DNA from: Candidatus Poribacteria bacterium | GTDB taxonomy: Bacteria > Poribacteria > DTPJ01 > WJIO01 | Direction: 5' to 3' | DNA: 30,113 bases | NCBI GenBank assembly: GCA_014730235.1 | Contig: WJIO01000250.1 | Coordinates: 1-30,113 of the forward strand | Shown: positions 6,910 to 28,262 of the stretch, piece after piece | How the letters are laid out: every line of letters begins with the position of its first letter | How positions within the stretch are numbered: the stretch's first letter is position 1 | Program-made: the position numbers and the translations under genes | Notes under the pieces: model-generated | Seen by the model: the letters and a program-made list of their open reading frames with translations, nothing else | The model's database searches: none | What the model was told of the DNA's origin: nothing

Positions 6910-6962
6910 TTTATTTTCACCCCTGTATGCTATCCTTTAAATACAATCATGGACATAACTCA

Positions 6963-7330: not shown

Positions 7331-7445
7331 GAATTCTATAGACAACAATAGAAAAAAGGTAAATACTATTTAGGTGCTGTCATTTTCTACAAACTTGGTA
7401 AATACGATATTAGGGAATTGAATCAAACAGGAGTATATTTATAGA

Positions 7446-8525: not shown

Positions 8526-8541
8526 AACAGGAGAATAAATT

Positions 8542-9672: not shown

Positions 9673-9692
9673 ATCTTCAAGAAGGAAATATA

Positions 9693-11567
9693 ATGGACAA
9701 ACAGGATATAAAAGCGAAGAGATGGGAAAGCATTGCCGAATGGTATGCACAAAGCAGAAGATGGAGAAATGAAAAGCCAGTAGACGGGAAAGTATGGATA
9801 GAGCCAAACCATGCTAAAGCATGTGAACCCAATATATGGGAGATAATCTATCAGGTTGGTCATACACCTCTAAAAGCTGGCGCTCATTTATCTGTAGAAG
9901 TCTCATCTGAATGGAAAATGGATCTGGGACGCATTTATCCAGCACCACACCTTGTTCCTGCCGGTTCTTCAAGCAACGGATACGGCGTACCTGTGCAGGT
10001 AAAAACATCCAGGGATGATATAGAAATTGATCTGGCCATTTCTCAACCTTCAAGATTTAGTATAATAGATGTGGCTATAACCAGAGGTATACTTCAGAAG
10101 GATGATATTATAAAAATAATACTGGGTAGATCTGATGGATCAAAGATCCGGGCCCAGAAGTATTCTCAGGACGCGGTATTTACTATGGGGGTAGATTTAA
10201 CCGGAAACGGAGAGTATCGCAGAATTTCTCCGTTACCCTTTGTTTCAGTTTCCGGCAGTTGGGCAACCGCTTTAAAAATAATCGCACCGGCTACAGTAGA
10301 TACGGATGAATTATTTGACATAAAAGTTATGCCCATTGATTCTTACGCCCACAATCCAGCATCGGATTACACCAGCGAAGTTGAACTTAAAGCTTCTAAT
10401 GCTTTGGAGATACCTTCCACAATAAAATTTGACCAAAATCCCATATCATCTGTAAAAGCAAGGGTTAAAAGTAATGGTATATATCGCATCACTGGTGTTG
10501 ATATGGGTAACGCCCTGATAGGAAGAAGTAACCCAATTGGCGCAGGATTTTCCAGCGATGGGAACATATATTTTGGCGATATACACGGACAGGTATACGA
10601 AAGTATAGGTACTGGAACTTCTGACGAATATTTTTCATGGGGAAGAGATGTGGAAAGGCTGGATTTCTGCGCACTGGCGAATCATTACGGAGGCAGGTAC
10701 AACGCAACACCAGATGTGTGGAATATTGTACTGGATACCACCAATAAATACAACCAACCCGGTAAATTCGCCGCTATTATAGGCTATGAATGGGGAGGAC
10801 GATCCGGCCACAGGAACGTATACTATAGAGGCGATACAGGCTTATTATATCCAGGATTTGAGGATAGATCAAATTCTCTGGATAAGTTATGGAATCTCCT
10901 TGACAGTCAGGATGTATTGACAATACCGCATCATTCCAGATACTGCACACCTACCGACTGGTCTTTGAGAAACGACAAAATGCAGAGGCTGGTAGAGATT
11001 TGCTCCCAATGGGGAATATCCGAATCCGGCGGCTCCCATTCAGTGCAGTATGCCCTGTCAAAGGGCCATAGGCTTGGATTTATCGGCGGCACAGACACTC
11101 ACTTCGGTCAACCCGGACACGGCGCTCATGGCATAAACGAAGGTCGCGGCCTGACGGCTGTTTATGCAAAAGAACTCACCAGAGAAGCCGTTTTTGATGC
11201 TCTTAAAGATAGATTCTGCTACGCAACCACCGGTGACAGAATACTGCTGGATTTCAGGCTAAACAACCTGAGAATGGGTCAGGGAGCTGAATATTCAACG
11301 GAATATAATACAAGGAAAATATTTGTAAAAGCAGAGGGTACAGCCAACATAACAAAAGCTGAAATTATAAGGAATAACAAAGTTATTCATTGCCACACCG
11401 GAAAGGGTTTATCAGTAAGTTTCGATTGGGAAGACAAAGAATCCTTAGATGATATTGCTTTCAAACCATCTTATGATGGTGATTCACCCTTTGTATATTA
11501 TTACTGTCGGATAACTCAGGAGAACGGACAGATGGCATGGAGTAGTCCTATTTGGATTAATCTGTAG
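9693..11567 (+). CDS. DUF3604/PHP-like metal-dependent hydrolase
   Basis: A 624-residue protein without signal peptide. The first 280 residues look like beta-sandwich sequence. The second part resembles DUF3604 proteins, which are related to PHP phosphoesterases. Putative metal-binding motifs are YFGDIHGQ (about 290), ALANHYGG, IPHHSRY (about 410) and GGTDTHFGQPGHG (about 465), followed by TREAVFDALKDRFCYATTGDR, a typical DUF3604 segment. A C-terminal beta domain follows. GAAGGA just upstream supports the start. It is third in the set with two UROD-family genes, which suggests a shared catabolic pathway that I cannot identify. The family has no settled reaction. Confidence 0.85.
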   Translation: MDKQDIKAKRWESIAEWYAQSRRWRNEKPVDGKVWIEPNHAKACEPNIWEIIYQVGHTPLKAGAHLSVEVSSEWKMDLGRIYPAPHLVPAGSSSNGYGVPVQVKTSRDDIEIDLAISQPSRFSIIDVAITRGILQKDDIIKIILGRSDGSKIRAQKYSQDAVFTMGVDLTGNGEYRRISPLPFVSVSGSWATALKIIAPATVDTDELFDIKVMPIDSYAHNPASDYTSEVELKASNALEIPSTIKFDQNPISSVKARVKSNGIYRITGVDMGNALIGRSNPIGAGFSSDGNIYFGDIHGQVYESIGTGTSDEYFSWGRDVERLDFCALANHYGGRYNATPDVWNIVLDTTNKYNQPGKFAAIIGYEWGGRSGHRNVYYRGDTGLLYPGFEDRSNSLDKLWNLLDSQDVLTIPHHSRYCTPTDWSLRNDKMQRLVEICSQWGISESGGSHSVQYALSKGHRLGFIGGTDTHFGQPGHGAHGINEGRGLTAVYAKELTREAVFDALKDRFCYATTGDRILLDFRLNNLRMGQGAEYSTEYNTRKIFVKAEGTANITKAEIIRNNKVIHCHTGKGLSVSFDWEDKESLDDIAFKPSYDGDSPFVYYYCRITQENGQMAWSSPIWINL

Positions 11568-13624: not shown

Positions 13625-16600
13625 TTGGGCAGAATAAAACTTTCAGTCCATATTCCTTCTTTTGTTACATTTTCACTAATTTTATTAATCTTTTCAATAT
13701 ATATTGTCAATATTGCCAATGCAGCAGCTAATGTTCCCTATCCAACTCCCGACCTTATACTTATTGTCTCAGGAAACGAACAGGAAGGTGTCGTCGGTCA
13801 GCCTTTGGATGAACCATTTGTAGTTAAGATTCTGGATAACAATAAATCTCCAGTAGCGGCTGCATCGGTGAAATTTGAGGTTACAAGCGGGGATGGTAAG
13901 TTAACTAAAAACCCAATTACCGATCCTACAGGGAAAACCAGTATCAAAGTCTTGACAAATAACACCGGTAAAGCAGGTATCAGGTTTATAATGGGTCAAA
14001 GCAAAGACCCGCATATAGTCAGAGTTACTGCTGGGGATGCTGATCCTGTGCAATTTGTAGCCACTATAGGCAATTCTCCTCCTCAGCTTGCCGCTATAGG
14101 TAATAAAACCGTTGAGGAAGGCAAGAATATCAATTTTTTGGTTACTGCAACTGATCCAGATGATGGTGATACAGTGACGCTTTCGGTTGAATCCCTTCCT
14201 GCCAATGCCAGCTTTAATCCCAATACAGGTGTATTTAATTTTAATCCTAACTTTGATCAGGCGGGTACATACGCGGTTAAATTTATCGCCAGTGATGGCC
14301 ATCTGACTGATTCCGAAACTGTAAATATTACCGTCCAGAACGTAAACCGTCCACCCAGCTTTGATATTACTGAAAATTGGACTGTGGACGAAAACAGCCA
14401 GCTAACCATAGCTCTAAACCCAAATGATCCCGACGCTGAAACCCTTTCTTTCTCCGCTTCCTATATGCCACCTGGTGCTACTTTAGATCGGCAAGGGCCT
14501 CAGCAATCGGTATTTAACTGGAAGCCGGATTATAATACTGTAATATCATCCTCACAAAAAGAATTTAATATAACCTTTACAGTAACAGATCCAGCAGGAT
14601 TAACGGTATCTGCTACCACAACCATAACTGTAAATAACGTGGAGCCGCCTCCTTCTGCTGATATAGACGTTGTTCCTCTGGAACTGGATTATGGTTCTGT
14701 AGGACTTGATTCCTCTAAAGACAGGATTTTCAGAATATTTAATCAGGGCAACGCATTATTAAATATCCAGAGTATCTTTTCAAATAATTCCCAGTTTGCT
14801 CTTATTGCCTATTCAGAGGAAGATGAACAGTTTGTTTCTGTGACCTATTCTGACGCCAAGGCTAACTTTGTTGCAAATATTTATGCTGAAGACGATCCCA
14901 GGTATGCGTCAATAGTTATGCCACCAGATAGTATGGCACCAGTAATTATAACCAATTCTAATGATCCCCGATATATGGTTGAAATGTATTCTGAATATCT
15001 TGGTGTTATACCCCGGGTTCAGTATATTAAAAATAACGACAATATAGTAGATGTAAATTATCCAGGGATCGCGCCGGCAGGAAATCTGCTCCTGGTAACC
15101 AGATTTACCCCTACATTAGAGGGTATCCATGAAGGCAAGCTGGAAATAAACAGCAATGATCCTGATGAGCCATTAGTAACAGTTGATGTAAGAGGTGCAG
15201 GTGTTCCTGAACCAATCATAAGCATTTCACCTCTAAATCTGGATTTTGGCCAGGTAGAGATCGGTCAATCTTCTGTCAGAAATTTAAATGTAAGTAACAA
15301 AGGCAGCAAAGTTCTAAATATCCAGAACATAACATCAAGCAATAACCAGTTTACCGCGCCAAAACCTTCAGGTATTATCCCTGGTGAAACTAAAGGTGTA
15401 ATTGTAACATACAAACCAACAACTCTGGGTCCTGTTACCGGTGAGTTATCAATAGTTAGTGATGATCCTAAAGCACCTGTGGTTACGGTTTCAGTTCAGG
15501 GAACGGGTTTAAAGCCGCCTGAACCGGATATAAGGATAGAAACGTTAAGCCTTAACTTCGGACAGGTATATACAAACAGTTCACTGGAAAAAACTTTCCG
15601 TATATACAACGACGGTGAAGCAAATCTTGATATTGCAGACATTACATCGAATAACTCTCAATTCACAGTTCCTGCATATTCAGATATACTGCCCGGTGAA
15701 AATGCAGATGTAACCGTTAATTATCAACCAACTACAGCAGGCAGTCATAACGCTTTAATTACAGTAAAAAGTAATGATCCCGATGAACCGCAGAAAACTA
15801 TAACAGTTCAGGGTGAAGGTGTTGCTCCTCCTAAACCAATTATACGCATTGAACCTATGGAAATTAACTTTGGTGATGTAGAAATTGGTGAACATAAGGA
15901 CGAAACATTTGCTATACATAATGATGGTAACGACATTTTGAATGTGTCCAGTATAGCTTCCAATAACAGCCAATTTCAGGTTTCCGGTAGCCCGAATATA
16001 GATCCGGGTGAAGTAACCTATATAAATATACAATTTGTTCCGGTTTCAGCAGGTGCAAAGACCGGTTTGGTTACCGTACAAAGCAATGATACTGACAATT
16101 CCACAAAAACCATAGATGTTCAGGGTGAAGGAATAGTAGTCCCAAGACCTGATATAAGAATTTATCCCGCTTCTGTGGATTATAGTCAGGTAGACGTGGG
16201 TAGTTCTCAGACCCGAAACATTCGTATATACAATGACGGTGATGCAAAGTTATGGATTTCAACTATAACCTCCAGCAGTAGTCAGTTTATCATACTGGAT
16301 AATCCGGATGTGGAAGCGGGAGAGATGAAACAGTTGAGAGTTAGGTTTACCCCTGTTTCAGCCGGAAATAAACAGGCGACCATAACCATAAACAGCAATG
16401 ATCCTGATGAATCTGTTGTAAATGTAGAGCTTATGGGTGAAGGCGTTGTTCCTCCTGCTCCCGAAATTCGTATAAATCCTGCAAGTCTGGATTTTGGTGA
16501 TGTGGATTTATCTCAATCAGTAACCAAGAAATTCCGTATCTATAATGATGGTGAAGCTGCATTGAATATAACCAGCATAACATCCAGTAACAGTCAATTC

Positions 16601-19441
16601 ACAATATTGGATAATCCAAGCACTATAGCAGTAGATGGTCTTTCTGATGTGCGGGTGAAATTTATACCTTCATCAGCAGGAACAAAGACAGCATCTGTGG
16701 TTATAGCCAGCAACGATCCTGACGAATCCAGCAAAGTCGTTCCTGTGCAGGGGGTAGGAATTCCTGCACCTGTTCCTGACATAAATGTTTCTCCTGTTAG
16801 TCTGAATTTTGGTCAGGTGGGAGTTGGCGCACAAATGGATAAGGCTTTGCGCATATATAACGAAGGTGATGCTGTATTAAATATTTCCAGCATAACATCC
16901 AATAGCAATCACTTTACAATATTAAATGAGCCGGATATAGAACCGGATTCCTTTGCTGATATTAATGTTCGCTTTAAGCCTTTCACAACTGGAGTCAAGA
17001 CCGGATCACTAACCATATCCAGTAATGATCCGGATGAAAATACCGTTTCAGTTCCACTTGAAGGTGAAGGTATACATCAGGAATTCCCGGATATATATGT
17101 GACTACCAATATACTGGAATTTGGGGATGTTGAAATAGGCAGTTCGTCTCAGCAGTCATTCCAGATATACAATTTGGGTGATGCTGTATTACAAATATCC
17201 GATATAACATCCTTCGATAGTCGTTTTGTGGTGCTTAATAAACCAAATGTAGCTGCCGGCTATAGCGCTGTGATACAGGTTAGATTCTCGCCTGTTGCCT
17301 ATGGCACAAGAAGCGGAACGCTGACGATTAAAAGCAATGATCCGGATGAGTCTGAAGTATACATTACCGTTGTCGGTAATGGTATATACCCCGGATATGC
17401 CGATGTTGGTGTCTGGAACAAAGTTGATATACAGAATATATCTCAGACTATGAGGGATGTTTTCTTTATTAATAATGACACCGGCTGGCTTGTAGGAGAT
17501 AACGGACTTATCGCCAGCAGTGATGACAGTGGTGATACATGGTCGTTACAGAACAGTAACATAACAAAATCTCTAAGAGGAATACATTTCACAAGCCAGA
17601 ACAACGGCTGGGCTGTTGGACAGAATGGCACTATTCTTTATACAAATAACGGTGGAACATTCTGGAGCACCTACAGCGCAGGTGGAAACAACACGTTAAA
17701 CGATGTATACTTTATGTCAAATCGTGGATGTATAGTTGGCGATGACGGCATGATTCTGACATCATATGGAAGTAATGACTGGATTGTACGGGATTCAGAT
17801 ACAGGGAGAGATCTAAACGCGGTATGCTTTGCAAGTGCCTATCGCGGTTGGATTGTAGGAAATTCAGGGACAATACTCCATACTACAAATGGTGGTAATA
17901 CATGGACCCAGCAATATACCGGCACTAACGCTGCCCTTAACGGTGTAGATTTTGTGAATACGCAGATCGGCTGGGCTGTGGGTAGTTTCGGTAAGATATT
18001 ACACACTACAAATGCAGGTCAGACATGGACATCCCAGGATGGGGGCATTGGTTTCATAACACTGCATGATGTGGACTTTATTAATTCCAATGAAGGCTGG
18101 ATTGTTGGGCAGAATGGAATTATCCTTTATACAGATGATGGTGGCGAAACATGGATAAATGTAGACAGCAAGATCAGCAATACCATAAACGCCGTCCATT
18201 TCAATGATACCGAAAACGGTTGGGCTGTAGGCTATTACGCCTCTATTCTCAAGCACTACATGACAGATCAGCCAGTTATAACATCTGTAAGCGTTACAGG
18301 TTCTCCCGCTGGTGCTGGTGATGTGATTACTATAATCGCCCAGGGAACACCGGGAAATACATGCAGTTTCTCCATCGCAGGGGTTGTATGGAATAGACTT
18401 ATGACTGAAAATCCATCTGGAACCTACAGGGGAACATATACAGTTTCCCAGGGGGTAAATGTCACATCTGCAACAGTAACAGTGGTTATGACTGATGAAA
18501 ATAGCAACGTGGACACAGACAGCAGTAAGAAGGTGACTATTGATACCCAGGCGGGTATTACGTCTATAAGTGTAACAGGAAGCCCGGCGAGGTCGGGAGA
18601 TAATATATCTATTACTATAGAAGCCGATCCCGATGGTAGTGCGAGATTCTCCATCGCAGGGGTTGTCTCAAACCTGGTAATGACGGAAGGTGCAAACGGT
18701 ATCTATTCTGCAAATTACACCACACCATCATGGGCTTATGTAAAAGATGCTGTTTTAACCATAAGCTTTACCGATGAGTCGGCCAATACCATAAATAATA
18801 CCAACAGAAAAGTTAGCATTTATCCCAACTGGGATGTAAATATGGACGGTATTGTAGATATATCCGACCTGACCATAGTTGCGTCAAAATTTGGTAATCA
18901 GGTTGCAACAGGTGATCCATCGGATATAAATGAAGATGGAACAGTGGATATTTTCGATCTGACGACTGTATCCAGTCACATGGGTGAATCGGCGGCAAAC
19001 GCCTCACCAGCAGTCCGGTTGCCTGTCACAGATAAATCTCAATTGGCTGTGTTGCGGGATGTCTATAATTCAATAGACTGGTCTGGTAATGATCCTTCTC
19101 TGAATTCCCTGGAAAATCTGTTTACCGATATATTGGGATTAAGAACAGCGAAGTTCCAGCTTATGCAGAACTATCCCAACCCATGTAATCCCGAAACATG
19201 GATACCATACAGCTTATCAGAAGCCGGTGATGTTGTAGTTAAAATATACGATTCTATGGGTAAGTTGATCCGAACCCTGGATATAGGTCATAAAAATCCC
19301 GGTGTGTATTATAATAAGGGAGACGCTGTATACTGGGATGGTAAAAACGAATATGGAGAAAGCATATCCAGCGGATTGTATTTCTACAGCATTAAATGTG
19401 GGGAATTCAATGCAATGCGTAAGATGATGGTTAGGAAATAG
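13625..19441 (+). CDS. Giant modular exported surface protein: Ig-like, ASH repeats, Ycf48-type propeller, dockerin, FlgD/T9SS-like C-terminus
   Basis: A 1938-residue protein with TTG start and RBS agggggtg at 13611-13618. Signal peptide 1-33 (ends NIANAA). Then come a Big/invasin-like Ig domain (40-148) and two cadherin-like He_PIG domains (about 150-240 and 245-340). Eight ASH/choice-of-anchor-D repeats of about 103 residues follow (343-1255), each with FG(Q/D)V...(I/L)YNDG...ITS.NSQF and ending SNDPDE...V.GEG. The first has an insertion of about 80 residues. Next is a seven-bladed Ycf48-like propeller (1259-1546; seven GW(A/L/I)VG motifs, one as GCIVG), two Ig-like domains (1549-1730), a dockerin-type calcium pair (1735-1787; DVNMDGIVDISD, DINEDGTVDIFD), and a C-terminal FlgD/T9SS-like domain (1842-1938; NYPNPCNPETWIPY). 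Probably secreted and attached outside the cell for adhesion or scaffolding. Ligand unknown. Confidence 0.93.
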   Translation: MGRIKLSVHIPSFVTFSLILLIFSIYIVNIANAAANVPYPTPDLILIVSGNEQEGVVGQPLDEPFVVKILDNNKSPVAAASVKFEVTSGDGKLTKNPITDPTGKTSIKVLTNNTGKAGIRFIMGQSKDPHIVRVTAGDADPVQFVATIGNSPPQLAAIGNKTVEEGKNINFLVTATDPDDGDTVTLSVESLPANASFNPNTGVFNFNPNFDQAGTYAVKFIASDGHLTDSETVNITVQNVNRPPSFDITENWTVDENSQLTIALNPNDPDAETLSFSASYMPPGATLDRQGPQQSVFNWKPDYNTVISSSQKEFNITFTVTDPAGLTVSATTTITVNNVEPPPSADIDVVPLELDYGSVGLDSSKDRIFRIFNQGNALLNIQSIFSNNSQFALIAYSEEDEQFVSVTYSDAKANFVANIYAEDDPRYASIVMPPDSMAPVIITNSNDPRYMVEMYSEYLGVIPRVQYIKNNDNIVDVNYPGIAPAGNLLLVTRFTPTLEGIHEGKLEINSNDPDEPLVTVDVRGAGVPEPIISISPLNLDFGQVEIGQSSVRNLNVSNKGSKVLNIQNITSSNNQFTAPKPSGIIPGETKGVIVTYKPTTLGPVTGELSIVSDDPKAPVVTVSVQGTGLKPPEPDIRIETLSLNFGQVYTNSSLEKTFRIYNDGEANLDIADITSNNSQFTVPAYSDILPGENADVTVNYQPTTAGSHNALITVKSNDPDEPQKTITVQGEGVAPPKPIIRIEPMEINFGDVEIGEHKDETFAIHNDGNDILNVSSIASNNSQFQVSGSPNIDPGEVTYINIQFVPVSAGAKTGLVTVQSNDTDNSTKTIDVQGEGIVVPRPDIRIYPASVDYSQVDVGSSQTRNIRIYNDGDAKLWISTITSSSSQFIILDNPDVEAGEMKQLRVRFTPVSAGNKQATITINSNDPDESVVNVELMGEGVVPPAPEIRINPASLDFGDVDLSQSVTKKFRIYNDGEAALNITSITSSNSQFTILDNPSTIAVDGLSDVRVKFIPSSAGTKTASVVIASNDPDESSKVVPVQGVGIPAPVPDINVSPVSLNFGQVGVGAQMDKALRIYNEGDAVLNISSITSNSNHFTILNEPDIEPDSFADINVRFKPFTTGVKTGSLTISSNDPDENTVSVPLEGEGIHQEFPDIYVTTNILEFGDVEIGSSSQQSFQIYNLGDAVLQISDITSFDSRFVVLNKPNVAAGYSAVIQVRFSPVAYGTRSGTLTIKSNDPDESEVYITVVGNGIYPGYADVGVWNKVDIQNISQTMRDVFFINNDTGWLVGDNGLIASSDDSGDTWSLQNSNITKSLRGIHFTSQNNGWAVGQNGTILYTNNGGTFWSTYSAGGNNTLNDVYFMSNRGCIVGDDGMILTSYGSNDWIVRDSDTGRDLNAVCFASAYRGWIVGNSGTILHTTNGGNTWTQQYTGTNAALNGVDFVNTQIGWAVGSFGKILHTTNAGQTWTSQDGGIGFITLHDVDFINSNEGWIVGQNGIILYTDDGGETWINVDSKISNTINAVHFNDTENGWAVGYYASILKHYMTDQPVITSVSVTGSPAGAGDVITIIAQGTPGNTCSFSIAGVVWNRLMTENPSGTYRGTYTVSQGVNVTSATVTVVMTDENSNVDTDSSKKVTIDTQAGITSISVTGSPARSGDNISITIEADPDGSARFSIAGVVSNLVMTEGANGIYSANYTTPSWAYVKDAVLTISFTDESANTINNTNRKVSIYPNWDVNMDGIVDISDLTIVASKFGNQVATGDPSDINEDGTVDIFDLTTVSSHMGESAANASPAVRLPVTDKSQLAVLRDVYNSIDWSGNDPSLNSLENLFTDILGLRTAKFQLMQNYPNPCNPETWIPYSLSEAGDVVVKIYDSMGKLIRTLDIGHKNPGVYYNKGDAVYWDGKNEYGESISSGLYFYSIKCGEFNAMRKMMVRK

Positions 19442-19548: not shown

Positions 19549-20706
19549 TTAGCTTCCTTTGGGCTTTATGAACAGAGTTTCTGCATAGGCGATCCATCCT
19601 GATCGCAGATCCACCCTGAACCATCCTTCATCATTTTTCTCATGGAAGCGAGTAGGTGAACGTTTGCCAAACTCCTTGAGATCGTATTGTTCCCATGTTT
19701 CACCCAAATCCAATGACACGATAATTCCTGTGTTTAATGGTGATGCAGGGGCGCAATGGGATGCCAGGATCACGTTATCCTGAATAATCATGTTTCCAGA
19801 TTCCACGCCCGGATTAAAAAGCATGGTATGAGCATCAATATTGGTTATATCGTCAGGAGAGCATCTGAAAACACCCCGGTCATGGGGTTCGGGACCGTTG
19901 GCATCACTGATCCAGTAAAGCTGACCATCAACAAAGCTTATACCTCCGGATTTGTAGCGGGTGTTTAGCTTGTTTGATATTATAACCTTCCAATCCCATT
20001 CATCTTTTATAGCATCATAAGTGCCTCTCAGCCAATGACATTCATATCCCTCTTCCCTGTCCATGTCACCTGTGCAGGCATAAAAAGCATTTTCGACGGT
20101 ATTATAGGATACAATGTGAATATGGCGGCATAATACCGGGTTATCGGGATTACCAAGAAGTTGTCCTGTTGACCCTCCACCGGCTGAACCGTTGTCCCTG
20201 TAGTAGGGGTTTTGACCGAAGGTGTAGGCAATTTTTACAGTATAACCATTATCCGTTGAGTAGTAGATATTTACAGGAGCTGCGCCACCTAAAACGTTAC
20301 AGTAATTTCCCCACACAAGCATTTCCACGCCATTTATATCCCATGAGTTAATACCAGAAAGGGTGTGGAAGTACCAACCCGGATAGTCTGGATTTTGCGG
20401 CTTATGGGGTTTGTAATCAGAACCGTCAATATCTATCAATTTAACTTGCTTATATGACTTTAGATTATCTGTGCTGAGGTACAGGTTTGAACCTGTGCCA
20501 AATATTACATTTCCGTTTTTCAGAATATGACTGAACGTTATACTATCTGCGTCAGGAAATGGTATGCTGTATGGCCATGTATTACTGTTGTCTTCAGAAA
20601 GAAAAATCTTACCATCCCCAAAGCCAAAGGCCCTATTATCTCGCTGGGAATCTATATAAGGAATTCCCGACGGCTGATAATACCAGAAATGATCCGTTGA
20701 AAACAT
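19549..20706 (-). CDS. Asp-box (BNR/sialidase-like) beta-propeller protein
   Basis: A 385-residue protein with no signal peptide or membrane segment. Asp-box-like motifs S-x-D-x-G-x-T-W are scattered through it: LSEDNSNTWPYS (about 36-47), YLSTDNLKSY (about 80), YYSTDNGYTVK (about 150) and VSLDLGETWEQY (about 340). This indicates a sialidase-type propeller fold. I do not see the arginine triad of true sialidases clearly, so enzymatic activity is uncertain. It could be a carbohydrate-binding or glycoside-acting protein. aaggag lies just upstream of the ATG on the minus strand. It converges on the giant surface protein, which also carries a propeller, across a shared terminator. Confidence 0.75.
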   Translation of the reverse strand: MFSTDHFWYYQPSGIPYIDSQRDNRAFGFGDGKIFLSEDNSNTWPYSIPFPDADSITFSHILKNGNVIFGTGSNLYLSTDNLKSYKQVKLIDIDGSDYKPHKPQNPDYPGWYFHTLSGINSWDINGVEMLVWGNYCNVLGGAAPVNIYYSTDNGYTVKIAYTFGQNPYYRDNGSAGGGSTGQLLGNPDNPVLCRHIHIVSYNTVENAFYACTGDMDREEGYECHWLRGTYDAIKDEWDWKVIISNKLNTRYKSGGISFVDGQLYWISDANGPEPHDRGVFRCSPDDITNIDAHTMLFNPGVESGNMIIQDNVILASHCAPASPLNTGIIVSLDLGETWEQYDLKEFGKRSPTRFHEKNDEGWFRVDLRSGWIAYAETLFIKPKGS

Positions 20707-20882: not shown

Positions 20883-21017
20883 ATGGCATTGGAAATACAG
20901 GAAAAAAATAACAGATTTTGAGTAATATGGCAAGGATATTTTGTCATAGATGCCGTTGATGCAGAAAAAACAAGCTTTGGTTTAAATTCAGAACGTTTGT
21001 TTCCCAATAGAAAAGAC
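20883..21017 (+). pseudogene. Possible disrupted small ORF with in-frame TGA
   Basis: An ATG at 20883 preceded by aagagg opens MALEIQEKNNRF, is closed by TGA at codon 13 (20919-20921), and then continues in the same frame as VIWQGYFVIDAVDAEKTSFG and onward to the terminator hairpin at 21018. The residues look protein-like, with hydrophobic and acidic positions alternating, but I do not recognise a family. It may be a decayed gene or chance. The rest of the spacer 20707-21062 holds only the upstream region of the propeller gene and the terminator. Confidence 0.3.
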
Positions 21018-21052
21018 ATAACCCCACGACTTTCAGAAAGTCGTGGGGTTAT
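21018..21052 (-). terminator. Terminator of the envelope-gene operon
   Basis: Arms ataaccccacgactttc (21018-21034) and gaaagtcgtggggttat (21036-21052) are exact inverted repeats separated by one base, giving a long GC-rich stem. On the minus strand gtcttttc follows. It starts 10 nt beyond the stop codon of the lytic transglycosylase gene. Confidence 0.8.
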
Positions 21053-21062
21053 GAAATTGTGG

Positions 21063-21818
21063 TTAATTACTCTCCCTGTAAAAACGGGTTTTGGCTTCCG
21101 GATACAGCCTCTTGAATTTATTCAGATACTGCTTCAGAGAACCCGGAAGCTGGTCATATGGTCTGTCAAGATAACGGGTACCTGAGGCATACATCCTTAT
21201 ACTCTTTTCCAGACTTCCTGTAGATCTGATATTATCTTTCATAATTTTAACTGTTACTTCGCATGCATCATTTATATCAAAGGGGTTATATGGTGAGCCA
21301 TCGGCTTTTCGGTAATGTTTATAATGCTCCGGTTGATGCTGCCAGGGCCCCAGACACTTGGTTCTTCGCTGGATAACCACTGGATCTTCCGAGAAGTTGG
21401 ACTCGATAGCCAGTAGCGTCCATATAACCGCTGGTTCAAAATTCATCCTCCGACATGTTTCCGAAATTACCCTTTCATATCGTTCAATACTGCTTTCAGA
21501 TTTATTATAGATTTCAGATTCAGGTTTTTCTGGTTTCTGGTAAATATATTCTGTCTCCTGTTGAACTGCTCTGGTTTGGGTAATTCGGTTTTTTTCATCC
21601 ATGTAGGAGATCCTCTCATCAAGCTCAACCATCTCCCCCAATAAGACTTTGGCCTTTGTCAATTTCCCTTCGGCTATAAGCTTATCCATCTGGGCTTTCA
21701 GGGTTTCAATCTGCAAGCGCATCATGGCCTCTTCCAGGCTTATGGCGTATATTCGCTGGACAATTACCGTAATAAACATTATGGCGATTATTGATGAAAT
21801 TAAGATTTTCTTAAACAT
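21063..21818 (-). CDS. SLT-type lytic transglycosylase, membrane anchored
   Basis: The protein has 251 residues: N-terminal membrane helix or signal (5-25), a helical region (28-90) with leucine-zipper-like spacing, and a transglycosylase SLT domain (about 110-245). The domain reads YERVISETCRRMNFEPAVIW followed by LLAIESNF, in which E139 is the expected catalytic acid of lysozyme-like lytic transglycosylases. The usual G-L-M-Q motif is replaced by CLGPWQHQPEHY, and PFDINDACEVTVKIMKDNI matches the late helix. Such enzymes cut peptidoglycan glycan strands in the periplasm. It is the last gene of the eight-gene operon and overlaps the TonB-like gene by 19 nt, so coupling is tight. It likely opens the wall for the complex encoded upstream. 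Confidence 0.82.
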   Translation of the reverse strand: MFKKILISSIIAIMFITVIVQRIYAISLEEAMMRLQIETLKAQMDKLIAEGKLTKAKVLLGEMVELDERISYMDEKNRITQTRAVQQETEYIYQKPEKPESEIYNKSESSIERYERVISETCRRMNFEPAVIWTLLAIESNFSEDPVVIQRRTKCLGPWQHQPEHYKHYRKADGSPYNPFDINDACEVTVKIMKDNIRSTGSLEKSIRMYASGTRYLDRPYDQLPGSLKQYLNKFKRLYPEAKTRFYRESN

Positions 21819-22840
21819 TCATAACTCTCCTTTCTATTATGATTTTCTACGGTTAATATTATATCTCTGTTTATTGATCCTATACCTCTGGGTATTGAAA
21901 CTGTAAAAACAACATCTTTACCTCTGGTGGTAAAAATTGCCTTGTAACTCTTATACTGGCTGTAATCACCGTCAATCTTTCCGTTAATACCCTTATCAAT
22001 AGAACCCAGGATCAAGTCAACTATATCATAGGTTGGAACTACGGCTAAATATGCGTGGGGGTTGTCTGAAGCATCTCTGGCAATTTTTCTGTAGCGACTG
22101 CCAGTTATAACCGATCCATAATTCCAGGCCAATCCATCCTGGCTGTTGGGATTTGAAATTATTCCCTTGTCCATATCTATCTTGCCGATGATATAGTTGA
22201 TCATACCGGATTTCATCTCTACAGCAAAGAATCCATAACCCTTTGCCTTGTAAAAATTCAGTTGATCCTTCATGTTTACATCTTTATATGTTATATGTAT
22301 CCTGGGAAAAGCTCTTGGTTTTTTGTTGTTTGTCTGAGTTCTTATAAACACATCCAACTCTTCGTCACTCAGTTCTATAGACTTTTCCTCTTTTGCAATA
22401 TAGGGGCTGCCGGCTGAATCTTTGACTTCCTTGGGTTCTGGTATGTATTCAGCCGGCAGCTTCGGAGGAGGAGATTGAGGAGGCAAAGCTTCCTCCAGTT
22501 CCACAGCCGCACTTTCCATTTTGGGTTCTTCCTGCTCCACAGACTGTTTTATTTCGGTTTTCGTCACGGGAGCTTCTTGAGTTTTGGTTTCCGCAGCTAT
22601 TGTTTCTATTTTTTCAGGGACGACTGGTTCGGGTATTTTTTCTATCACAGGTATTTCCACAACCTCCACAAGTTCTATGAATACCTCTTCTTTTTCCTGA
22701 ATTTCTTCCTTTACTTCTTCTTCAGGTTTCAATTCCTGTTTTGTTTTCGCTTCGGGTAGAAATCGGATCAGGGTCACAGCCATGATAATACCTATGATAC
22801 ACGAAATACCTATTTTAGCGGGAGTTTCCATCCTCAACAT
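21800..22840 (-). CDS. TonB-like single-TM periplasm-spanning protein
   Basis: The protein has 346 residues: a short cytoplasmic N-terminus, one membrane helix (about 8-28, KIGISCIIGIIMAVTLIRFL), then a long Glu/Pro/Val-rich spacer (30-150) with PVIEKIPEPVVPEKIE and LPPQSPPPKLPAEYIPEPKE. A folded C-terminal domain (about 165-340) contains FPRIHITYKDVNMKDQLNFY and other beta-rich sequence. This is the layout of TonB and TolA, but the C-terminal domain does not look like canonical TonB_C, so the call rests on topology and on the ExbB/ExbD-like genes upstream. The first ATG is chosen because tggag lies about 10 nt before it, while the ATG at codon 4 has no usable spacing. VirB10-like topology is an alternative, but no secretion ATPase is nearby. 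Confidence 0.65.
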   Translation of the reverse strand: MLRMETPAKIGISCIIGIIMAVTLIRFLPEAKTKQELKPEEEVKEEIQEKEEVFIELVEVVEIPVIEKIPEPVVPEKIETIAAETKTQEAPVTKTEIKQSVEQEEPKMESAAVELEEALPPQSPPPKLPAEYIPEPKEVKDSAGSPYIAKEEKSIELSDEELDVFIRTQTNNKKPRAFPRIHITYKDVNMKDQLNFYKAKGYGFFAVEMKSGMINYIIGKIDMDKGIISNPNSQDGLAWNYGSVITGSRYRKIARDASDNPHAYLAVVPTYDIVDLILGSIDKGINGKIDGDYSQYKSYKAIFTTRGKDVVFTVSIPRGIGSINRDIILTVENHNRKESYECLRKS

Positions 22841-22854
22841 CCTTTTTCTCCATG

Positions 22855-23505
22855 TTAGATTTTATCCACATAACCCAGGCTTTTCAGCATAGCGTCCACT
22901 TTTTCTTTGGCTTCCTGGTAGGCCTGACGTTCAAGAACAGCTTTTTCCCGGGCTTTTATATCCTTCTGCTGTTTGCTTTCCACTGATGTTTTTACTGATG
23001 ATAGGCCGTGATCTCTTTCTGATGCGGATACCAGCATATCATCGTCTTTTTCAACCTTATTAGAAAACAGACCGCTTCTTTCCACAATACGGCCGGCTTC
23101 CTGACGCACCTTTTGAATTTCAGCTTCTGAATCAACAGATTTTGCTACCGATTGAGATTTTTCAGGTTTCATGAATGATTTTGTGGTTTCCTGTTCTGTT
23201 TTTTCTTTGGTTGATTCATCTGTTTTTGTATTAGCAAAAAACTCTTTTTCCAGTTTTTCAAAGTAAGGATCTATATAAGGTTTTTTCTGCTTTTTTGATT
23301 CTGGCATAGGTATATCTTCATTTTGCTGGCTTTCTGAATCAACTAAAACATCTGGTTGTTGTATTTTCTGTTCAGAATCTACTATTGGTTCTGAGACTTT
23401 ATTTTTATGTCTGGAAGTTACAACCCAGGCAGTAGCTACCAGCATAATAGTTACAGCAACGACAATACAAAGAACTGCGGCTCTACCTGTTTTTTTATTC
23501 ATCAT
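22855..23505 (-). CDS. Single-TM protein with disordered, coiled-coil periplasmic part
   Basis: The protein has 216 residues: Lys/Arg-rich start, one membrane helix (about 9-29, AVLCIVVAVTIMLVATAWVV), then a polar, Lys/Glu/Ser/Gln-rich region. Residues about 125-145 and 175-212 have the heptad-like charge pattern of coiled coils (for example KDIKAREKAVLERQAYQEAK). No family recognised. Its ATG overlaps the stop of the ExbD-like gene by 4 nt, and it precedes the TonB-like gene by 14 nt. The topology parallels TolA helical linkers, so a structural or bridging role in the complex is a reasonable guess. Confidence 0.7.
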   Translation of the reverse strand: MMNKKTGRAAVLCIVVAVTIMLVATAWVVTSRHKNKVSEPIVDSEQKIQQPDVLVDSESQQNEDIPMPESKKQKKPYIDPYFEKLEKEFFANTKTDESTKEKTEQETTKSFMKPEKSQSVAKSVDSEAEIQKVRQEAGRIVERSGLFSNKVEKDDDMLVSASERDHGLSSVKTSVESKQQKDIKAREKAVLERQAYQEAKEKVDAMLKSLGYVDKI

Positions 23506-23927
23506 TTTGATCCTCCATTTACCTTTGAATAGGCTATTCCCATATTCATATTATTTTCTTTAAATTTTTGGGACATTTTAATAAAAAAATCCTGCTTGTG
23601 AATGGGTAATGACAAGTCAATAACGGGTTTGCCATCCAGGGATGATAAGTTTAGGTTATCAATTGAAGTTCTTGAAATTTCTACGCCATCGGCTGTTGTG
23701 ATAATACATTCATCCCCGTCATTACCCATTCGTATTATATAAATAGTTCCATTTCCCTGACTTGACTGCTCTTCTGGCATCTGGATTTCCTGAATTTCCG
23801 CATTCTCCCCCTGTGCTTCATTTTCCATGACTGCGCCAAAGTGGGCTACACTCAAAGCCAGTATCAAATGGCTGATAATTATCCAGGGTAAATCCGATGG
23901 GCTTTGCAGGTATTTCAGAATCTTCAT
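23502..23927 (-). CDS. ExbD/TolR-like protein, divergent
   Basis: The protein has 141 residues: N-in membrane helix (about 14-33, LPWIIISHLILALSVAHFGA), a linker, and a small periplasmic alpha/beta domain. The segments GTIYIIRM, ADGVEISRTS and KPVIDLSLPIHKQDFFIKMS followed by a helix and MNMGIAY match the order of elements in ExbD/TolR periplasmic domains. ExbD and TolR have a proton-carrying aspartate at the start of the membrane helix (motif P-x-x-D). Here SPSD places D12 in about that position, but the match is weak. It directly follows the ExbB-like gene (6-nt gap), the usual order for these pairs. Assignment is inference from topology and position. Confidence 0.55.
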   Translation of the reverse strand: MKILKYLQSPSDLPWIIISHLILALSVAHFGAVMENEAQGENAEIQEIQMPEEQSSQGNGTIYIIRMGNDGDECIITTADGVEISRTSIDNLNLSSLDGKPVIDLSLPIHKQDFFIKMSQKFKENNMNMGIAYSKVNGGSK

Positions 23928-23933
23928 CCCGGA

Positions 23934-24536
23934 CTACTCCTCTCTTTCATCCCGCTTGTGGATGGCGAACATGTAGGCCACCAGCAGTATGCTAAAAGCT
24001 GCGTATCCTCCAATGGTACTGATTAACGCCTCGGAAATCTTTGCCCCTACCAATGATGCGTTTTCCAGACCAGCGCCCAATCCCCCGCACATAGCCGTGT
24101 ATGTATTCACCTGCCCCAGCAGGGGTGTTTCTATTAACATGGCTGCGCTTACCTTTGACAATACGGAAGTATAACGGGGCCAATCCTCGATCCTGATCCC
24201 CTGAAGACGGGAGTATACAGCAATCCCGGTGATTAATACGGCAAAACCAATTCCCAACCCGGAAGAATACGCGCTCCATCCAACTTTATCCACCAGCATA
24301 CTCATCAAATTGACGCCGTATCTGTAGATACCCACTAACTGGATCAGGGCCAGGACAGCTATCTCAATCAGCATCATGGTTGCAGTAAAGAATGCCAGTT
24401 TTGATTTTTCATCCATCGTCAGGACATAGTTGTTATCGTTCATTTTCTCCCGCCTTATGGGTATCGCCACCGCACCACCCTCTCCCTTTGCGTTAAATCT
24501 ATACGCGTCCTGGTTTTCTATAATTACATCTTCCAT
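23934..24536 (-). CDS. ExbB/TolQ/MotA-family proton-channel-like inner-membrane protein
   Basis: The protein has 200 residues: a polar N-terminus, then hydrophobic helices at about 47-70, 90-109, 128-153 and 165-192. The last two carry the family signature: ETPLLGQVNTYTAMCGG (136-152), then KISEALISTIGGYAAFSILL (166-185). This parallels the PLLGLLGTV...IAEALLATAIGL...IP pattern of ExbB/TolQ/MotA, with the channel threonine at T174. Family members form pentamers that use the proton or sodium gradient to drive a partner protein. It is followed at once by an ExbD-like gene, and a hairpin in the 46-nt spacer before it may modulate its expression. The extra helix compared with ExbB is unusual. Confident on superfamily, not on subfamily. 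Confidence 0.72.
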   Translation of the reverse strand: MEDVIIENQDAYRFNAKGEGGAVAIPIRREKMNDNNYVLTMDEKSKLAFFTATMMLIEIAVLALIQLVGIYRYGVNLMSMLVDKVGWSAYSSGLGIGFAVLITGIAVYSRLQGIRIEDWPRYTSVLSKVSAAMLIETPLLGQVNTYTAMCGGLGAGLENASLVGAKISEALISTIGGYAAFSILLVAYMFAIHKRDEREE

Positions 24537-24543
24537 CTTAACA

Positions 24544-24579
24544 CTCCAAAAAATAACTGATCACGAATTACGGATCAGT
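24544..24579 (-). terminator. Terminator or attenuator hairpin inside the envelope operon
   Basis: On the minus strand actgatc...gatcagt (24579-24556) forms at least a 7-bp stem and is followed at once by tattttttgg. It lies between the stop of the small exported-protein gene (24583) and the ExbB-like gene (start 24536). It could lower expression of the motor genes relative to the first three genes. Confidence 0.55.
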
Positions 24580-24582
24580 GTT

Positions 24583-25050
24583 TTATATCTGAAATTTCAA
24601 CATTTTTCCCGATATAATGGAATTTTCAGCCGGATTTACTCCGTGTTTGTATATCCTGCCTTCGATTACCACAAATCCCAGACCTGAGGCTTTATAATCC
24701 ACCACTTCTATTACATCCGAGTTAAGACGGAAAGGGCAAAAAGGAAGTCTTTGTTCAAACCATCGCATATCATCGGTTGTCTTAGGCCTGCGTCGGGCCA
24801 CCACATTGGTTATCTGGTAAGTTGCGTCGAATACATCCCGCTGATACATTATGGGATCCTGAGTTATAAACAGGGATGCAGTTGCACTTTCACATGATGT
24901 AACCAGCTTAATCAGTGATTCCTGGATTACCTGTTCCCTGAGTTTTTCCACGTTTATTCTCATGGATTCCGGTGTGTTAATTGTCTCTGCGTTTACGTTT
25001 GAAGATACAAACATTATGGTTATCAATGCAGCGGTAAATATGATTCTCAT
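24583..25050 (-). CDS. Small exported protein of unknown function
   Basis: The protein has 155 residues with a clear Sec signal peptide (1-21, IIFTAALITIMFVSSNVNA). The mature part has a helical first half and a more beta-rich end (VIEVVDYKASGLGFVVIEGR). Two cysteines (in SCES and PFCPF) could form a periplasmic disulfide. No family recognised. Its ATG overlaps the stop of the coiled-coil gene by 4 nt, which implies coupled translation and a shared task in the periplasm. Confidence 0.8.
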   Translation of the reverse strand: MRIIFTAALITIMFVSSNVNAETINTPESMRINVEKLREQVIQESLIKLVTSCESATASLFITQDPIMYQRDVFDATYQITNVVARRRPKTTDDMRWFEQRLPFCPFRLNSDVIEVVDYKASGLGFVVIEGRIYKHGVNPAENSIISGKMLKFQI

Positions 25051-26075
25051 TTGCTTCCACTCTCCTTCCTACGGGCTTTTACCTGTCGGTCTATCCTCTC
25101 TACTCTATCCCTCCAGCTTTCGCCGGGTGTGGTTGTCAGGTTGGCCGAATTTACTTTGCTTGATCTGGTGTTCTTGGATATTATGTCACCGATCTTCGGG
25201 AGTTTTTTTACCTTTGGAGGTCTTTTGAGATTGCCCATACGGTTGTGAGCTTTGGTTAATTTGGCTGAAAGAAGCTCCAGAGCCACTGTAAGGCCTTTCT
25301 GTCTCAGTCTATCCTCCCAGGCCAGGGATTCATCCAACATCAGGAAGGCTTCATTCAGTGTATAGGAAACGTTGTTCTGTATCTCCTGGTAATAGTCAAC
25401 TATCCACTCCATATCAACCGTCTCTTCGTCATGATCCATGAAATCCTCAAGCTGAGACTGGAACAACTCCCAGCTATATTTTATAGTCTCACGCTTCTGG
25501 GCCATGTTGGGATCGATGGCGGCTATTTCGTCGAAAAGGTCGCCGCTGATAACGTCCTCCAGTCCGGTGAAGGCCTTGGCAAAGCCTATCATGCTGTCCT
25601 GGTACTTATACATGGCCTCTTTATCCACATCACCCCGCTTGTCCAGCATTTCCTTATGTTCCAGCAGATCCCCCAGCTTGCTGTTAAGGTCGATTACCTG
25701 GGAGATTGTATTGATGCGCTTATACAGCATCTTTTTGTAAAGGTTTATGGCCTGTTCCTGAAGCTGTACGATATTGGCGTTATCGCCGATCATCTGGTAT
25801 ATCTCGATCTTGTTGGGTTTACTGCCGGGTCTTAATCCCTGGGCTATTTTTTGGGCTTCAGCGTCGATCTGCTTCTGAAGTTCCTGAATCCTGATCTCGA
25901 TACCCTCTTCAGAGTCCTTTAAATCCTCAAACGCGTTGTCAATATCGCTGATGGTTTCATCCAGGGCTTTCATAAGGTCAATTCCCATTATCTCATCGGG
26001 AAAGTCGTTAGCAGTAACAGGAAGAACGAAAAGTGTAACAACCGTACAAATCGCCAAAAATCTCATCTTTATCAT
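25047..26075 (-). CDS. Exported helical coiled-coil protein of unknown function
   Basis: The protein has 342 residues with a signal peptide (about 1-22, FLAICTVVTLFVLPVTA). The mature protein is almost wholly helical and highly charged, with coiled-coil stretches at about 35-80 (ALDETISDIDNAFEDLKDSE), 100-160 and 250-285. A basic C-terminal tail has KRPPKVKKLPKIG and RDRVERIDRQVKARRKE. No enzyme motifs. It follows the lipoprotein gene after 4 nt and overlaps the next gene by 4 nt. It may be a periplasmic rod or adaptor between the outer-membrane lipoprotein and the inner-membrane complex, which is inferred only from topology and order. Confidence 0.8.
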   Translation of the reverse strand: MIKMRFLAICTVVTLFVLPVTANDFPDEIMGIDLMKALDETISDIDNAFEDLKDSEEGIEIRIQELQKQIDAEAQKIAQGLRPGSKPNKIEIYQMIGDNANIVQLQEQAINLYKKMLYKRINTISQVIDLNSKLGDLLEHKEMLDKRGDVDKEAMYKYQDSMIGFAKAFTGLEDVISGDLFDEIAAIDPNMAQKRETIKYSWELFQSQLEDFMDHDEETVDMEWIVDYYQEIQNNVSYTLNEAFLMLDESLAWEDRLRQKGLTVALELLSAKLTKAHNRMGNLKRPPKVKKLPKIGDIISKNTRSSKVNSANLTTTPGESWRDRVERIDRQVKARRKESGSK

Positions 26076-26079
26076 GTCC

Positions 26080-26661
26080 TTATCCTCCTATCTGGTTCTG
26101 TGCTGAATCTACCCACGATACCAACTGGTATGGAACCTTTGTCCAGTAGCTTTGCTCTTTACGACCTATGGATATATCACCCAGGTAGAGCAGTACGGAT
26201 TCTTCCTTTGAAATAACCCTCTCGGATATATCCGAGACATTACGAGCAAATTCGGTGCATCCTGCAATCTGCTTTACCATGTCCACCGCTTCCTGGGGTG
26301 AAGAAGCCTTTTTACCGGCGATAAAATACATCCTGGCCCCTTCCATGGCCAGAAGATAAGCCGCTTCGCTGTCGGGCTTGGGCCCATAATGACCCCTTGC
26401 CAGCTTCATATACTGTTCGGCGGCATCGGCATACTGACCGGCTGCGACCAATCCAGCAGCAAACCGCATAATATCCTCCGGATCGGATTTGTCACCAATA
26501 CGATGGCTTGGTTCAAGCCCCGATTCCGGGACATATACCTTCTGATATTCTACAGTATAAGGCTCTTCCGGAACGTTGCTGGAACAGGCCGTCAAAATAA
26601 CCGGCACAAACAAAATGACTAATAAAACATAGCTTCCTTTCAATATTTTTGGTCTTAACAT
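26080..26661 (-). CDS. Outer-envelope lipoprotein with TPR-like helices
   Basis: The protein has 193 residues. The lipoprotein signal ends in the lipobox LTAC with C26, followed by SSN, so outer-membrane retention is likely by the usual sorting rule (no Asp at +2). Residues about 65-125 contain MRFAAGLVAAGQYADAAEQY and AAYLLAMEGARMYFIAGK, helix pairs resembling tetratricopeptide repeats, which bind other proteins. First gene of the eight-gene operon, with a strong RBS gaggaggt 6 nt before the ATG. TPR lipoproteins are common partners of Tol-like and gliding machines (for example GltE-type), so an anchoring role is plausible. Confidence 0.8.
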   Translation of the reverse strand: MLRPKILKGSYVLLVILFVPVILTACSSNVPEEPYTVEYQKVYVPESGLEPSHRIGDKSDPEDIMRFAAGLVAAGQYADAAEQYMKLARGHYGPKPDSEAAYLLAMEGARMYFIAGKKASSPQEAVDMVKQIAGCTEFARNVSDISERVISKEESVLLYLGDISIGRKEQSYWTKVPYQLVSWVDSAQNQIGG

Positions 26662-26730
26662 CTTGATACCTCCTCATGGAATTGTTATTATTTTCTTGCT
26701 GTCGTCTGTAAAGACGGCGTTAATGGCTGT

Positions 26731-26748
26731 AAATATTCTGGAATATTT
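26731..26748 (-). promoter_or_regulatory. Palindrome upstream of the envelope operon, possible operator
   Basis: aaatattc and gaatattt are perfect 8-bp inverted repeats separated by tg, 70-87 bp before the start codon of the lipoprotein gene. A second hairpin (cgtct-gtaa-agacg, 26703-26716) lies between it and the gene. No convincing promoter hexamers were seen. The remaining spacer 26749-26920 is AT-rich and shows no gene. Confidence 0.4.
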
Positions 26749-26920
26749 TTTACCCTTAAATACGTCTTAATTGGTTTATACGCTTTTAGAGATTGTCTAT
26801 TATGGAATCCCAGCGCAATGACAAATATAAAACACTTAGATCTACCTAAACGGATTTAGATCTCAAGTAATTAATATATAAGAGAAATTGTTTTCGACTT
26901 GGGGAAAGAATAAAAGTAAG

Positions 26921-27040
26921 AGTTCTTCCGAGTTCAGTGTGGTAATAATTGAAAATTTTCTCAGCTTGTCATTCCTGCTTTCGCAGGAATGACAGCATAA
27001 ATAAGTCTCTTATCTTTACCACACTGAACCCGGAAAAGCC
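26921..27040. repeat. Full-length 120-bp MITE-like element with 8-bp target duplication
   Basis: Ends agttcttccgagttcagtgt and ttaccacactgaacccggaaaagcc are inverted repeats. The centre gtcattcctgc-ttt-cgcaggaatgac is at 26968-26993. Identical octamers aaagtaag flank it at 26913-26920 and 27041-27048. It lies in opposite orientation to the copies at 13423 and 28362. Confidence 0.8.
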
Positions 27041-27061
27041 AAAGTAAGTAATATATTCTAT

Positions 27062-27193
27062 ATACCACATACCACCTGCACAATATATGGTAAAATATAC
27101 GTTATTGGAGGGAGTTCTGGATTTCTTTATGCCCTTGGTGCTGTCCCACAAATCCTTACAGTCATTGAAGCATATAATACAGGAGTTGAATCT
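27062..27193 (+). pseudogene. Kelch-repeat gene remnant
   Basis: One frame reads CTIYGKIYVIGG, then LTVIEAYNTG, the core of a Kelch propeller repeat (G-K-I-Y-V-I-G-G ... E-x-Y). It has no start codon or RBS, no neighbouring repeats, and the element ending at 27040 lies just upstream. It is best read as the surviving scrap of a larger Kelch-protein gene. Downstream sequence in the same frame stays open to about 27309 but shows no recognisable domain. Confidence 0.55.
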
Positions 27194-27256
27194 TACGGTG
27201 TTGAATTAAATGGAAAAAACATCCACATGGGGGAGTATGAAAAAATAGCTAATTGT

Positions 27257-27281
27257 GGGTTGAGTCTGGGAAACTCAACCC
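27257..27281 (-). terminator. Hairpin downstream of the znuA-like gene
   Basis: gggttgagt (27257-27265) and actcaaccc (27273-27281) form a 9-bp stem with a 7-nt loop, 23 nt after the stop codon on the minus strand. The T-run (ctatttttt) comes about 9 nt further on, so terminator strength is doubtful. Its sequence resembles the palindrome at 4065-4098. Confidence 0.45.
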
Positions 27282-27304
27282 TTAACTCTTTAAAAAGTAA
27301 GAAA

Positions 27305-28213
27305 CTATAGCTCTGAGAAAGCTTGAGATACTTTTCTCAGGTTATTAATATAGTCTTTTTTCAGAGGATCGATGAGCACCATATGTCCTTTAATCTCTTT
27401 GGCGATAACCTCTGCGCTTTTTGTGCTGAATTGCGGCGATGCGAAGATAACCTTTGCATTATATTCTTTAGCCTGATTGATAAGATTTTGTATTCCCCTG
27501 GCTGTGGGATTTTTACCACCTTCTTCGATAGGCATCTGCTCAAGATTATAAGACCTCGCGAAATATCCCCAGGCGGGATGGAAAACCATAAAAGTCTTAA
27601 CTTTCTTACTTGATAAAGCCTTTTTTATTTCACTATCAAGTTTATTAAGTTCCTTGATATATGCCTCTTTGTTGCTGGTATAATATTCCTTATTTTTGGG
27701 GTCAAGAGAAATCAGAGCTTTATGAATATTTTCAACCATTATTATGGCATTCTTGGGTGAAAGCCATATGTGAGGGTCATAACCCTTGTTTTTGTGATCA
27801 TCAGAATTCTTCTCCTGGTCATGTTCTTTTTCATGGTCGTGTTTGTCATTCATCCTGTGTAATTTTACATTCTTAGAAGCATCAACCACGACCATATTTA
27901 CATTTGTTGAAATTATTTTATCCAGCCATACCAGCTCAAATTCCACAGGAGTACCAACTTTTACATACATCTTCGCCTTGCTGACATTGACCAACTGGTT
28001 AGGGGTAGGCTCATAAGAATGTGGTGAAGCACCTGGTGGCACCATAACGTTGACAGTAACCTTATCACCACCTATTTTTTCTGTAAATTCCTGAAGAGGT
28101 ACTATGCTTACCACAATTCCCAGTTTATTAGAATCTCTTTCCTCCTTTGAACACCCATATACTATTGTTAGAATTATAAACAAACTAATAAGTATCAATC
28201 TTTTCTTTGGCAT
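27305..28213 (-). CDS. znuA: ZnuA/TroA-type zinc-binding lipoprotein of an ABC transporter
   Basis: The mature protein captures zinc (possibly manganese) in the periplasm and hands it to an ABC permease. From the ATG at 28213 it has 302 residues: lipoprotein signal with lipobox IVYGC (C21), GASPHSYEPTP (H65), a His/Asp/Glu/Lys-rich loop (about 119-145, KHDHEKEHDQEKNSDDHK) typical of zinc-specific members, DPHIWLSP (H148), VFHPAWGYFARSY (H212) and LIDPL (D282), which make up the expected metal site. I prefer this start to an upstream TTG because ggagg lies just before it. Permease and ATPase genes are not adjacent, so it is an orphan within the window. Confidence 0.9.
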   Translation of the reverse strand: MPKKRLILISLFIILTIVYGCSKEERDSNKLGIVVSIVPLQEFTEKIGGDKVTVNVMVPPGASPHSYEPTPNQLVNVSKAKMYVKVGTPVEFELVWLDKIISTNVNMVVVDASKNVKLHRMNDKHDHEKEHDQEKNSDDHKNKGYDPHIWLSPKNAIIMVENIHKALISLDPKNKEYYTSNKEAYIKELNKLDSEIKKALSSKKVKTFMVFHPAWGYFARSYNLEQMPIEEGGKNPTARGIQNLINQAKEYNAKVIFASPQFSTKSAEVIAKEIKGHMVLIDPLKKDYINNLRKVSQAFSEL

Positions 28214-28262
28214 AATATCCTCCAAAAGCAATGCGTAGATAGTTTTGTATGATTATGGATAT

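Follow-up and report, generated by a model that had tools for sequence, protein, structure and literature searches.

To our knowledge, a function has been assigned to few proton-driven motors of the ExbB/MotA class, namely those of flagella, Ton, Tol, gliding, and Zorya. The presence of an ExbB-like gene, an ExbD-like gene, and a lytic transglycosylase gene in one operon of Candidatus Poribacteria bacterium raised the question of which machine these genes encode. The window analyzed here (30,113 nucleotides) covers the whole of contig WJIO01000250.1 of this organism (assembly GCA_014730235.1, 5.5 Mb), and the operon comprises eight minus-strand open reading frames (ORFs), designated g1 to g8, spanning positions 21063-26661. 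Analysis of the predicted products indicates that the operon probably specifies a divergent proton-driven trans-envelope machine of the ExbBD/TolQR type with a dedicated lytic transglycosylase.

The putative motor pair

A first-pass annotation, based on the nucleotide sequence and its ORFs, had assigned to g5 the layout of ExbD and TolR. The structure of g5 was predicted from the single sequence by AlphaFold and compared with about 1000 chains from the Protein Data Bank. Residues 61-130 were modelled with block-mean confidence values (pLDDT) of 70-91, the reliable part comprising residues 61-110 and the helix after them. The chains ranked 1 to 4 for the periplasmic domain were TolR (Z 8.2; 3.4 Å over 82 residues) and three ExbD chains (Z 7.8, 7.7, and 7.5; 1.8-1.9 Å over 64-67 of 72-75 residues), although a Z near 8 can by itself reflect a common structural arrangement. 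The best unrelated fold had a Z of 6.9, and Foldseek matches were weak (E 0.012 for TolR). The assignment carries weight because the four top-ranked chains belong to the family that had been predicted beforehand, because the ExbD domain is covered almost in full, and because the neighboring gene is ExbB-like. Thus, the periplasmic domain of g5 is predicted to have an ExbD/TolR-type fold, as the proposed layout implied.

The genes for the A and B subunits of such motors are typically adjacent (PMC12505986), and g4, which is ExbB-like, adjoins g5. Conserved residues of ExbB include Pro141, Thr148, and Thr181 (PMC12215075, PMC7014051). Alignment with hhalign placed residues P138, T145, E169, and T174 of g4 in the ExbB register (P 0.0013). 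The same register was obtained with HMMER, our own ExbB profile giving a score of 6.2 bits that was equalled by 7 of 1000 shuffled sequences. The spacing between P138 and T145 is 7 residues, as between P141 and T148 of ExbB, and that between T145 and T174 is 29 residues versus 33 for T148 and T181. These alignments indicate that g4 carries a predicted helix pair of the ExbB/TolQ/MotA type with polar threonines in register. Judging from hydropathy and charges, the N-terminus is apparently cytoplasmic and the protein seems to contain four transmembrane (TM) helices and almost no cytoplasmic domain, the cytoplasmic loop consisting of ~21 residues.

The lytic transglycosylase and the organization of the operon

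The C-terminal part of g8 (21066-21506), which had been annotated as an SLT transglycosylase, matched PF01464 (E 9.4e-7, profile positions 5-104 of 117) with a score of 28.8 bits, which exceeds the Pfam cut-off of 21.3. No SLT match was obtained with full-length g8 as the query, the isolated domain being needed. The ES-x-F motif is present as AIESNF (residues 137-142), in which Glu139 is the predicted catalytic residue. In the AlphaFold model of whole g8, the SLT part was of low confidence and structural matches were confined to the N-terminal helices. Since the PF01464 score exceeds the cut-off and Glu139 is located in AIESNF, g8 is by sequence a lytic transglycosylase, the activity itself being predicted.

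The eight genes are separated by gaps of 4, 46, 6, and 14 nucleotides or overlap by 4, 4, and 19 nucleotides (Table 1). A purine-rich, Shine-Dalgarno-like stretch was found 5' of each of the eight ORFs, and in all eight cases the called frame had the top codon score among the six frames. These data agree with the gene order and spacing initially reported. The terminator thought to close the operon was also retrieved: its perfect stem (-27.5 kcal/mol, z -8) was matched by none of 200 shuffled sequences. Export or anchoring signals of the products were likewise confirmed, namely a lipobox in g1, signal-peptide-like N-termini in g2, g3, and g8, a single N-terminal TM segment in g5, g6, and g7, and three to four TM segments in g4.

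Table 1. Features of the operon and positions in the window.
Feature	Position	Strand	Description
g1	26080..26661	-	193-aa lipoprotein; lipobox LTAC, Cys26, Ser at +2; possibly one TPR-like helix pair
g2	25047..26075	-	342-aa secreted, mostly helical (coiled-coil-like) protein; signal peptide; helical periodicity near 3.6
g3	24583..25050	-	155-aa secreted protein; no known family matched in profile searches
g4	23934..24536	-	200-aa ExbB/TolQ/MotA-like putative channel subunit; core TPLLGQVNT (137-145) and ISEALIST (167-174)
g5	23502..23927	-	141-aa ExbD/TolR-like predicted subunit; D12 just N-terminal of the TM helix; periplasmic domain 61-132
g6	22855..23505	-	216-aa single-TM protein; charged periplasmic region
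g7	21800..22840	-	346-aa single-TM protein; Glu/Pro-rich linker; C-terminal domain of ~180 aa; candidate force transducer
g8	21063..21818	-	251-aa exported protein; C-terminal SLT lytic transglycosylase domain; predicted catalytic Glu139
Rho-independent terminator	21017..21053	-	Perfect 17-bp stem followed by a T-rich stretch

The description of g1 as a TPR lipoprotein held for the lipoprotein part, the TPR assignment remaining weak (TPR_20, E 0.14). Because a serine follows the lipobox cysteine, the sequence suggests that g1 is located in the outer membrane. The proposal of a coiled-coil protein agrees with the helical character of the secreted protein g2, for which a family search returned no significant match.

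Other motors of the same genome and distribution of the operon

The genome harbors a MotA-MotB pair among flagellar genes (contig C101) and a TPR-ExbB-ExbD-TonB set (contig C239); in a further cluster (contig C74), ExbB is accompanied by TPR and coiled-coil lipoproteins. The g1-g8 operon therefore adds a divergent motor set to those that the genome already has. The cluster on contig C74 (37000-47000) is also unusual, no ExbD being visible there. It encodes an ExbB/TolQ-like protein of 227 residues, a multi-TM protein of 417 residues whose Glu/Pro tail resembles that of TonB, one lipoprotein with TPR and others with coiled coils, and what is probably a barrel protein.

Relatives were searched for with single-protein and concatenated eight-protein queries in 84 genomes of the same phylum, including the genome under study. 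Conserved synteny across Poribacteria, which the first-pass annotation had proposed as a check, was not found: no relatives of the operon were detected in the 83 other genomes, one of which belongs to the same order. Since single sequences were used as queries, distant relatives could have escaped, those sharing less than roughly 25-30% identity (an estimate) being missed. The acetyl-CoA synthetase gene located on the same contig has its best match (80%) in a metagenome-assembled genome (MAG) of Candidatus Poribacteria, in which no relatives of the operon were found either. Acetyl-CoA synthetases with 69-77% identity to that of the window were also found in MAGs labelled Chloroflexi and Nanoarchaeota (L048, L049, L093, and L078), presumably through transfer or misbinned contigs.

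The searches were equally negative in 27 genomes of other phyla, in 64, 167, 392, and 68 genomes of four further phyla, in 72,556 plasmids, and in phages and viral contigs. Patterns of 8 residues from the operon proteins retrieved no relatives from a species-genome collection. The few weak matches were ordinary ExbB proteins or stretches containing stop codons and were rejected. The small MotA/ExbB-like proteins of related genomes were also discarded, being an FtsX-like protein, lone MotA-like genes, or MotA/OmpA pairs. The operon is likely to be divergent and restricted to its lineage. Two further arrangements of MotA-like genes are of note. In a related genome (locus L046 on contig C24 of G003, 4116-10196), two pairs of genes in tandem encode MotA-like proteins with a long coiled coil and OmpA-type MotB-like proteins, an organization reminiscent of Zorya. 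Locus L042 (3385-4381) encodes two tandem, very similar MotA-like proteins of 152-153 residues with no visible B subunit.

Observations weighing against a proton-driven machine

Several observations argue against the proposed machine. The score of g4 with PF01618 (E 0.0039, 17.4 bits) lies under the Pfam gathering cut-off of 22.9. DUF2484, a spurious family, scores the TM region of g4 as well as PF01618 does, and a few unrelated ORFs score near g4 with our own ExbB profile. The PF01618 match is not convincing alone, because DUF2484 scores equally and because our own profile is matched by shuffled sequences and unrelated ORFs. For g5, neither PF02472 nor any other sequence profile gave a match, whether the protein was submitted whole or in parts. 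The essential Asp25 of ExbD precedes the hydrophobic helix (PMC7014051); D12 of g5 is also located before the hydrophobic stretch, at the edge of a helix modelled with low confidence, and no acidic residue is present within the TM segment. The TM helix of TonB and TolA carries the SHLS motif (Ser-x3-His) (PMC12215075), which is absent from g6 and g7, whereas the TonB of the same genome (contig C239) has it. A sequence resembling the D-box (PMC10907165), VEIPVIE, is present at residues 61-67 of g7, within chance since 14% of shuffled sequences contain one. Finally, none of about 790 other genomes yielded a relative of the set in which co-conservation could be compared.

These observations raise the possibility that the operon merely groups envelope proteins around an SLT enzyme, g4 being no proton channel and its two TM helices resembling those of ExbB by chance. 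The sub-threshold PF01618 score and the equal scores of spurious models would fit this explanation. It is improbable in view of the four residues of g4 in the ExbB register and of the ExbD/TolR-like domain predicted for the neighboring g5. The ExbB/TolQ/MotA signature originally recognized in g4 is therefore retained for the alignment, which is specific and in register at P138, T145, and T174, and not for the family score.

Comparison with known systems

The operon resembles the Ton system (ExbBD-TonB) by the ExbB-like core of g4, with the proline and both threonines in register, by the ExbD fold predicted for g5, and by a single-TM protein with a proline-rich linker. It differs by the lack of SHLS, of the TonB C-terminal domain, of the TM3 proline, and of a receptor, by the apparent near absence of a cytoplasmic domain in g4, and by the addition of an SLT enzyme and a lipoprotein. 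The TonB/TolA-like character of g6 and g7, whose linkers are long and charged, was thus limited to their layout: no match to PF03544 was obtained, and g7 gave no match to a TonB/TolA C-terminal domain with the whole protein or its C-terminal part. The TM3 proline of ExbB, Pro190 (PMC12215075), has no equivalent in g4, which contains no proline at residues 172-192. Because g6 and g7 lack Ser-x3-His and g4 lacks an equivalent of Pro190, the sequences suggest that neither partner has its share of the docking network of Ton and Tol.

Tol-Pal is linked to cell-wall enzymes. A diverged Tol-Pal system, in which g4, g5, and g7 would be TolQ, TolR, and TolA, g1 would replace Pal, and g8 would aid septal wall cleavage, accounts for TolR being the closest structural match of g5, for the link to the wall, and for the shared layout of a single-TM transducer, an outer-membrane-type lipoprotein, and periplasmic partners. 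We consider this explanation rather unlikely, since family scans of the eight proteins detected no TolB, Pal/OmpA-like domain, or CpoB, since g6 and g7 lack SHLS, since other ExbB/TolQ clusters exist in the genome (contigs C74 and C239), and since the operon was not found in the 83 other genomes of the phylum. Membership in the Ton or Tol systems is not supported, as several defining features fail; the association of an ExbB-like/ExbD-like pair with an SLT enzyme in one operon that has no TolB, Pal, OmpA domain, or ATPase does depart from the standard forms, as had been proposed.

Non-flagellar MotAB homologues ('GIT', PMC12505986), including AglRQ/S, share with the operon an adjacent A/B pair and a short periplasmic domain of the B subunit devoid of an OmpA domain. 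In the members described, the cytoplasmic domain is condensed but still has two or three helices (PMC12505986), in contrast to the ~21-residue loop predicted for g4. A motor pair is found here beside TPR-like lipoprotein, coiled-coil, and single-TM proteins, a setting in which non-flagellar MotA homologues such as AglR occur (PMC12505986, PMC9389320). The operon could accordingly be viewed as an Agl-Glt kind of trans-envelope motility or surface transport system, in which g4 and g5 would drive periplasmic and outer-membrane parts and g8 would open the wall. There is little likelihood of this, given that no family match to an outer-membrane barrel, a cytoplasmic polarity protein, or an ATPase was found in the operon and that the genome already contains flagellar genes with MotAB. 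PADLOC models of Zorya ZorA and ZorB gave no match.

SLT/VirB1-like accessory enzymes resemble g8 by a PF01464 domain with a catalytic glutamate and by being encoded beside the machine that they possibly serve; g8 differs in its long N-terminal helix and in being tied to a motor operon and not to a secretion system. A channel for secretion or conjugation related to type IV secretion systems, in which g8 and g2 would correspond to VirB1 and VirB5 and g1 to a lipoprotein of the VirB7 kind, would explain the co-occurrence of an SLT enzyme, a secreted coiled-coil protein, and a lipoprotein. This is very improbable: the family scans revealed no VirB4-type ATPase, VirB11, or VirB8-10 among the operon proteins, g5 has a predicted ExbD/TolR fold, and none of the plasmids yielded a match. 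The lack of Pal, TolB, an OmpA-like domain, and an ATPase noted in the first-pass annotation was thus upheld.

Proposed mechanism

In the favored machine of the ExbBD/TolQR type, g4 would form a ring around a dimer of g5, and protons would cross via D12 of g5 and T145 and T174 of g4. The periplasmic domains of g5 would pass motion to g7, and perhaps also to g6. Spanning the periplasm, g7 might reach g1, the presumed outer-membrane lipoprotein, as well as g2 and g3, which are secreted. Local cutting of peptidoglycan by g8 could let the assembly traverse the wall or couple wall cutting to the motor. Our best guess, by analogy with Tol, is a role in envelope remodelling or anchoring; the motility, surface display, or export suggested in the first-pass annotation is speculative.

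More tentatively, and with the balance tilting against it, the operon may define an undescribed motor class, in which a four-TM A subunit almost devoid of a cytoplasmic domain is paired with a B subunit that has the ExbD/TolR fold, the transducer docks in the absence of the Ser-His network of Ton and Tol, and a lytic transglycosylase is built in. A divergent extra motor in a genome already holding MotAB and Ton-like sets suggests a further task for such motors. If g4 truly lacks a cytoplasmic domain, it would represent a minimal channel ring. If g6 or g7 docks without SHLS, force transmission would not require the contact network that Ton and Tol are believed to have in common.

Other genes of the window

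No long ORF is present on the strand of the operon in the upstream stretch 26662-27304, beyond which a ZnuA-type gene is located (27305-28231; PF01297, E 3.4e-79). On the strand of the operon, outside the terminator, positions 19549-20706 encode a 385-residue protein with weak Sortilin-Vps10/BNR similarity. Positions 13625-19441 encode a surface protein of 1938 residues in which Ig-like units recur; it also contains Asp-box-like repeats and, at the C-terminus, a FlgD-like or sorting-type domain (NYPNPCNPETWIPYSLSEAG...KMMVRK). A membrane protein encoded at 6055-6909 ends with a stretch that resembles, by eye, the peptidoglycan-binding SPOR domain.

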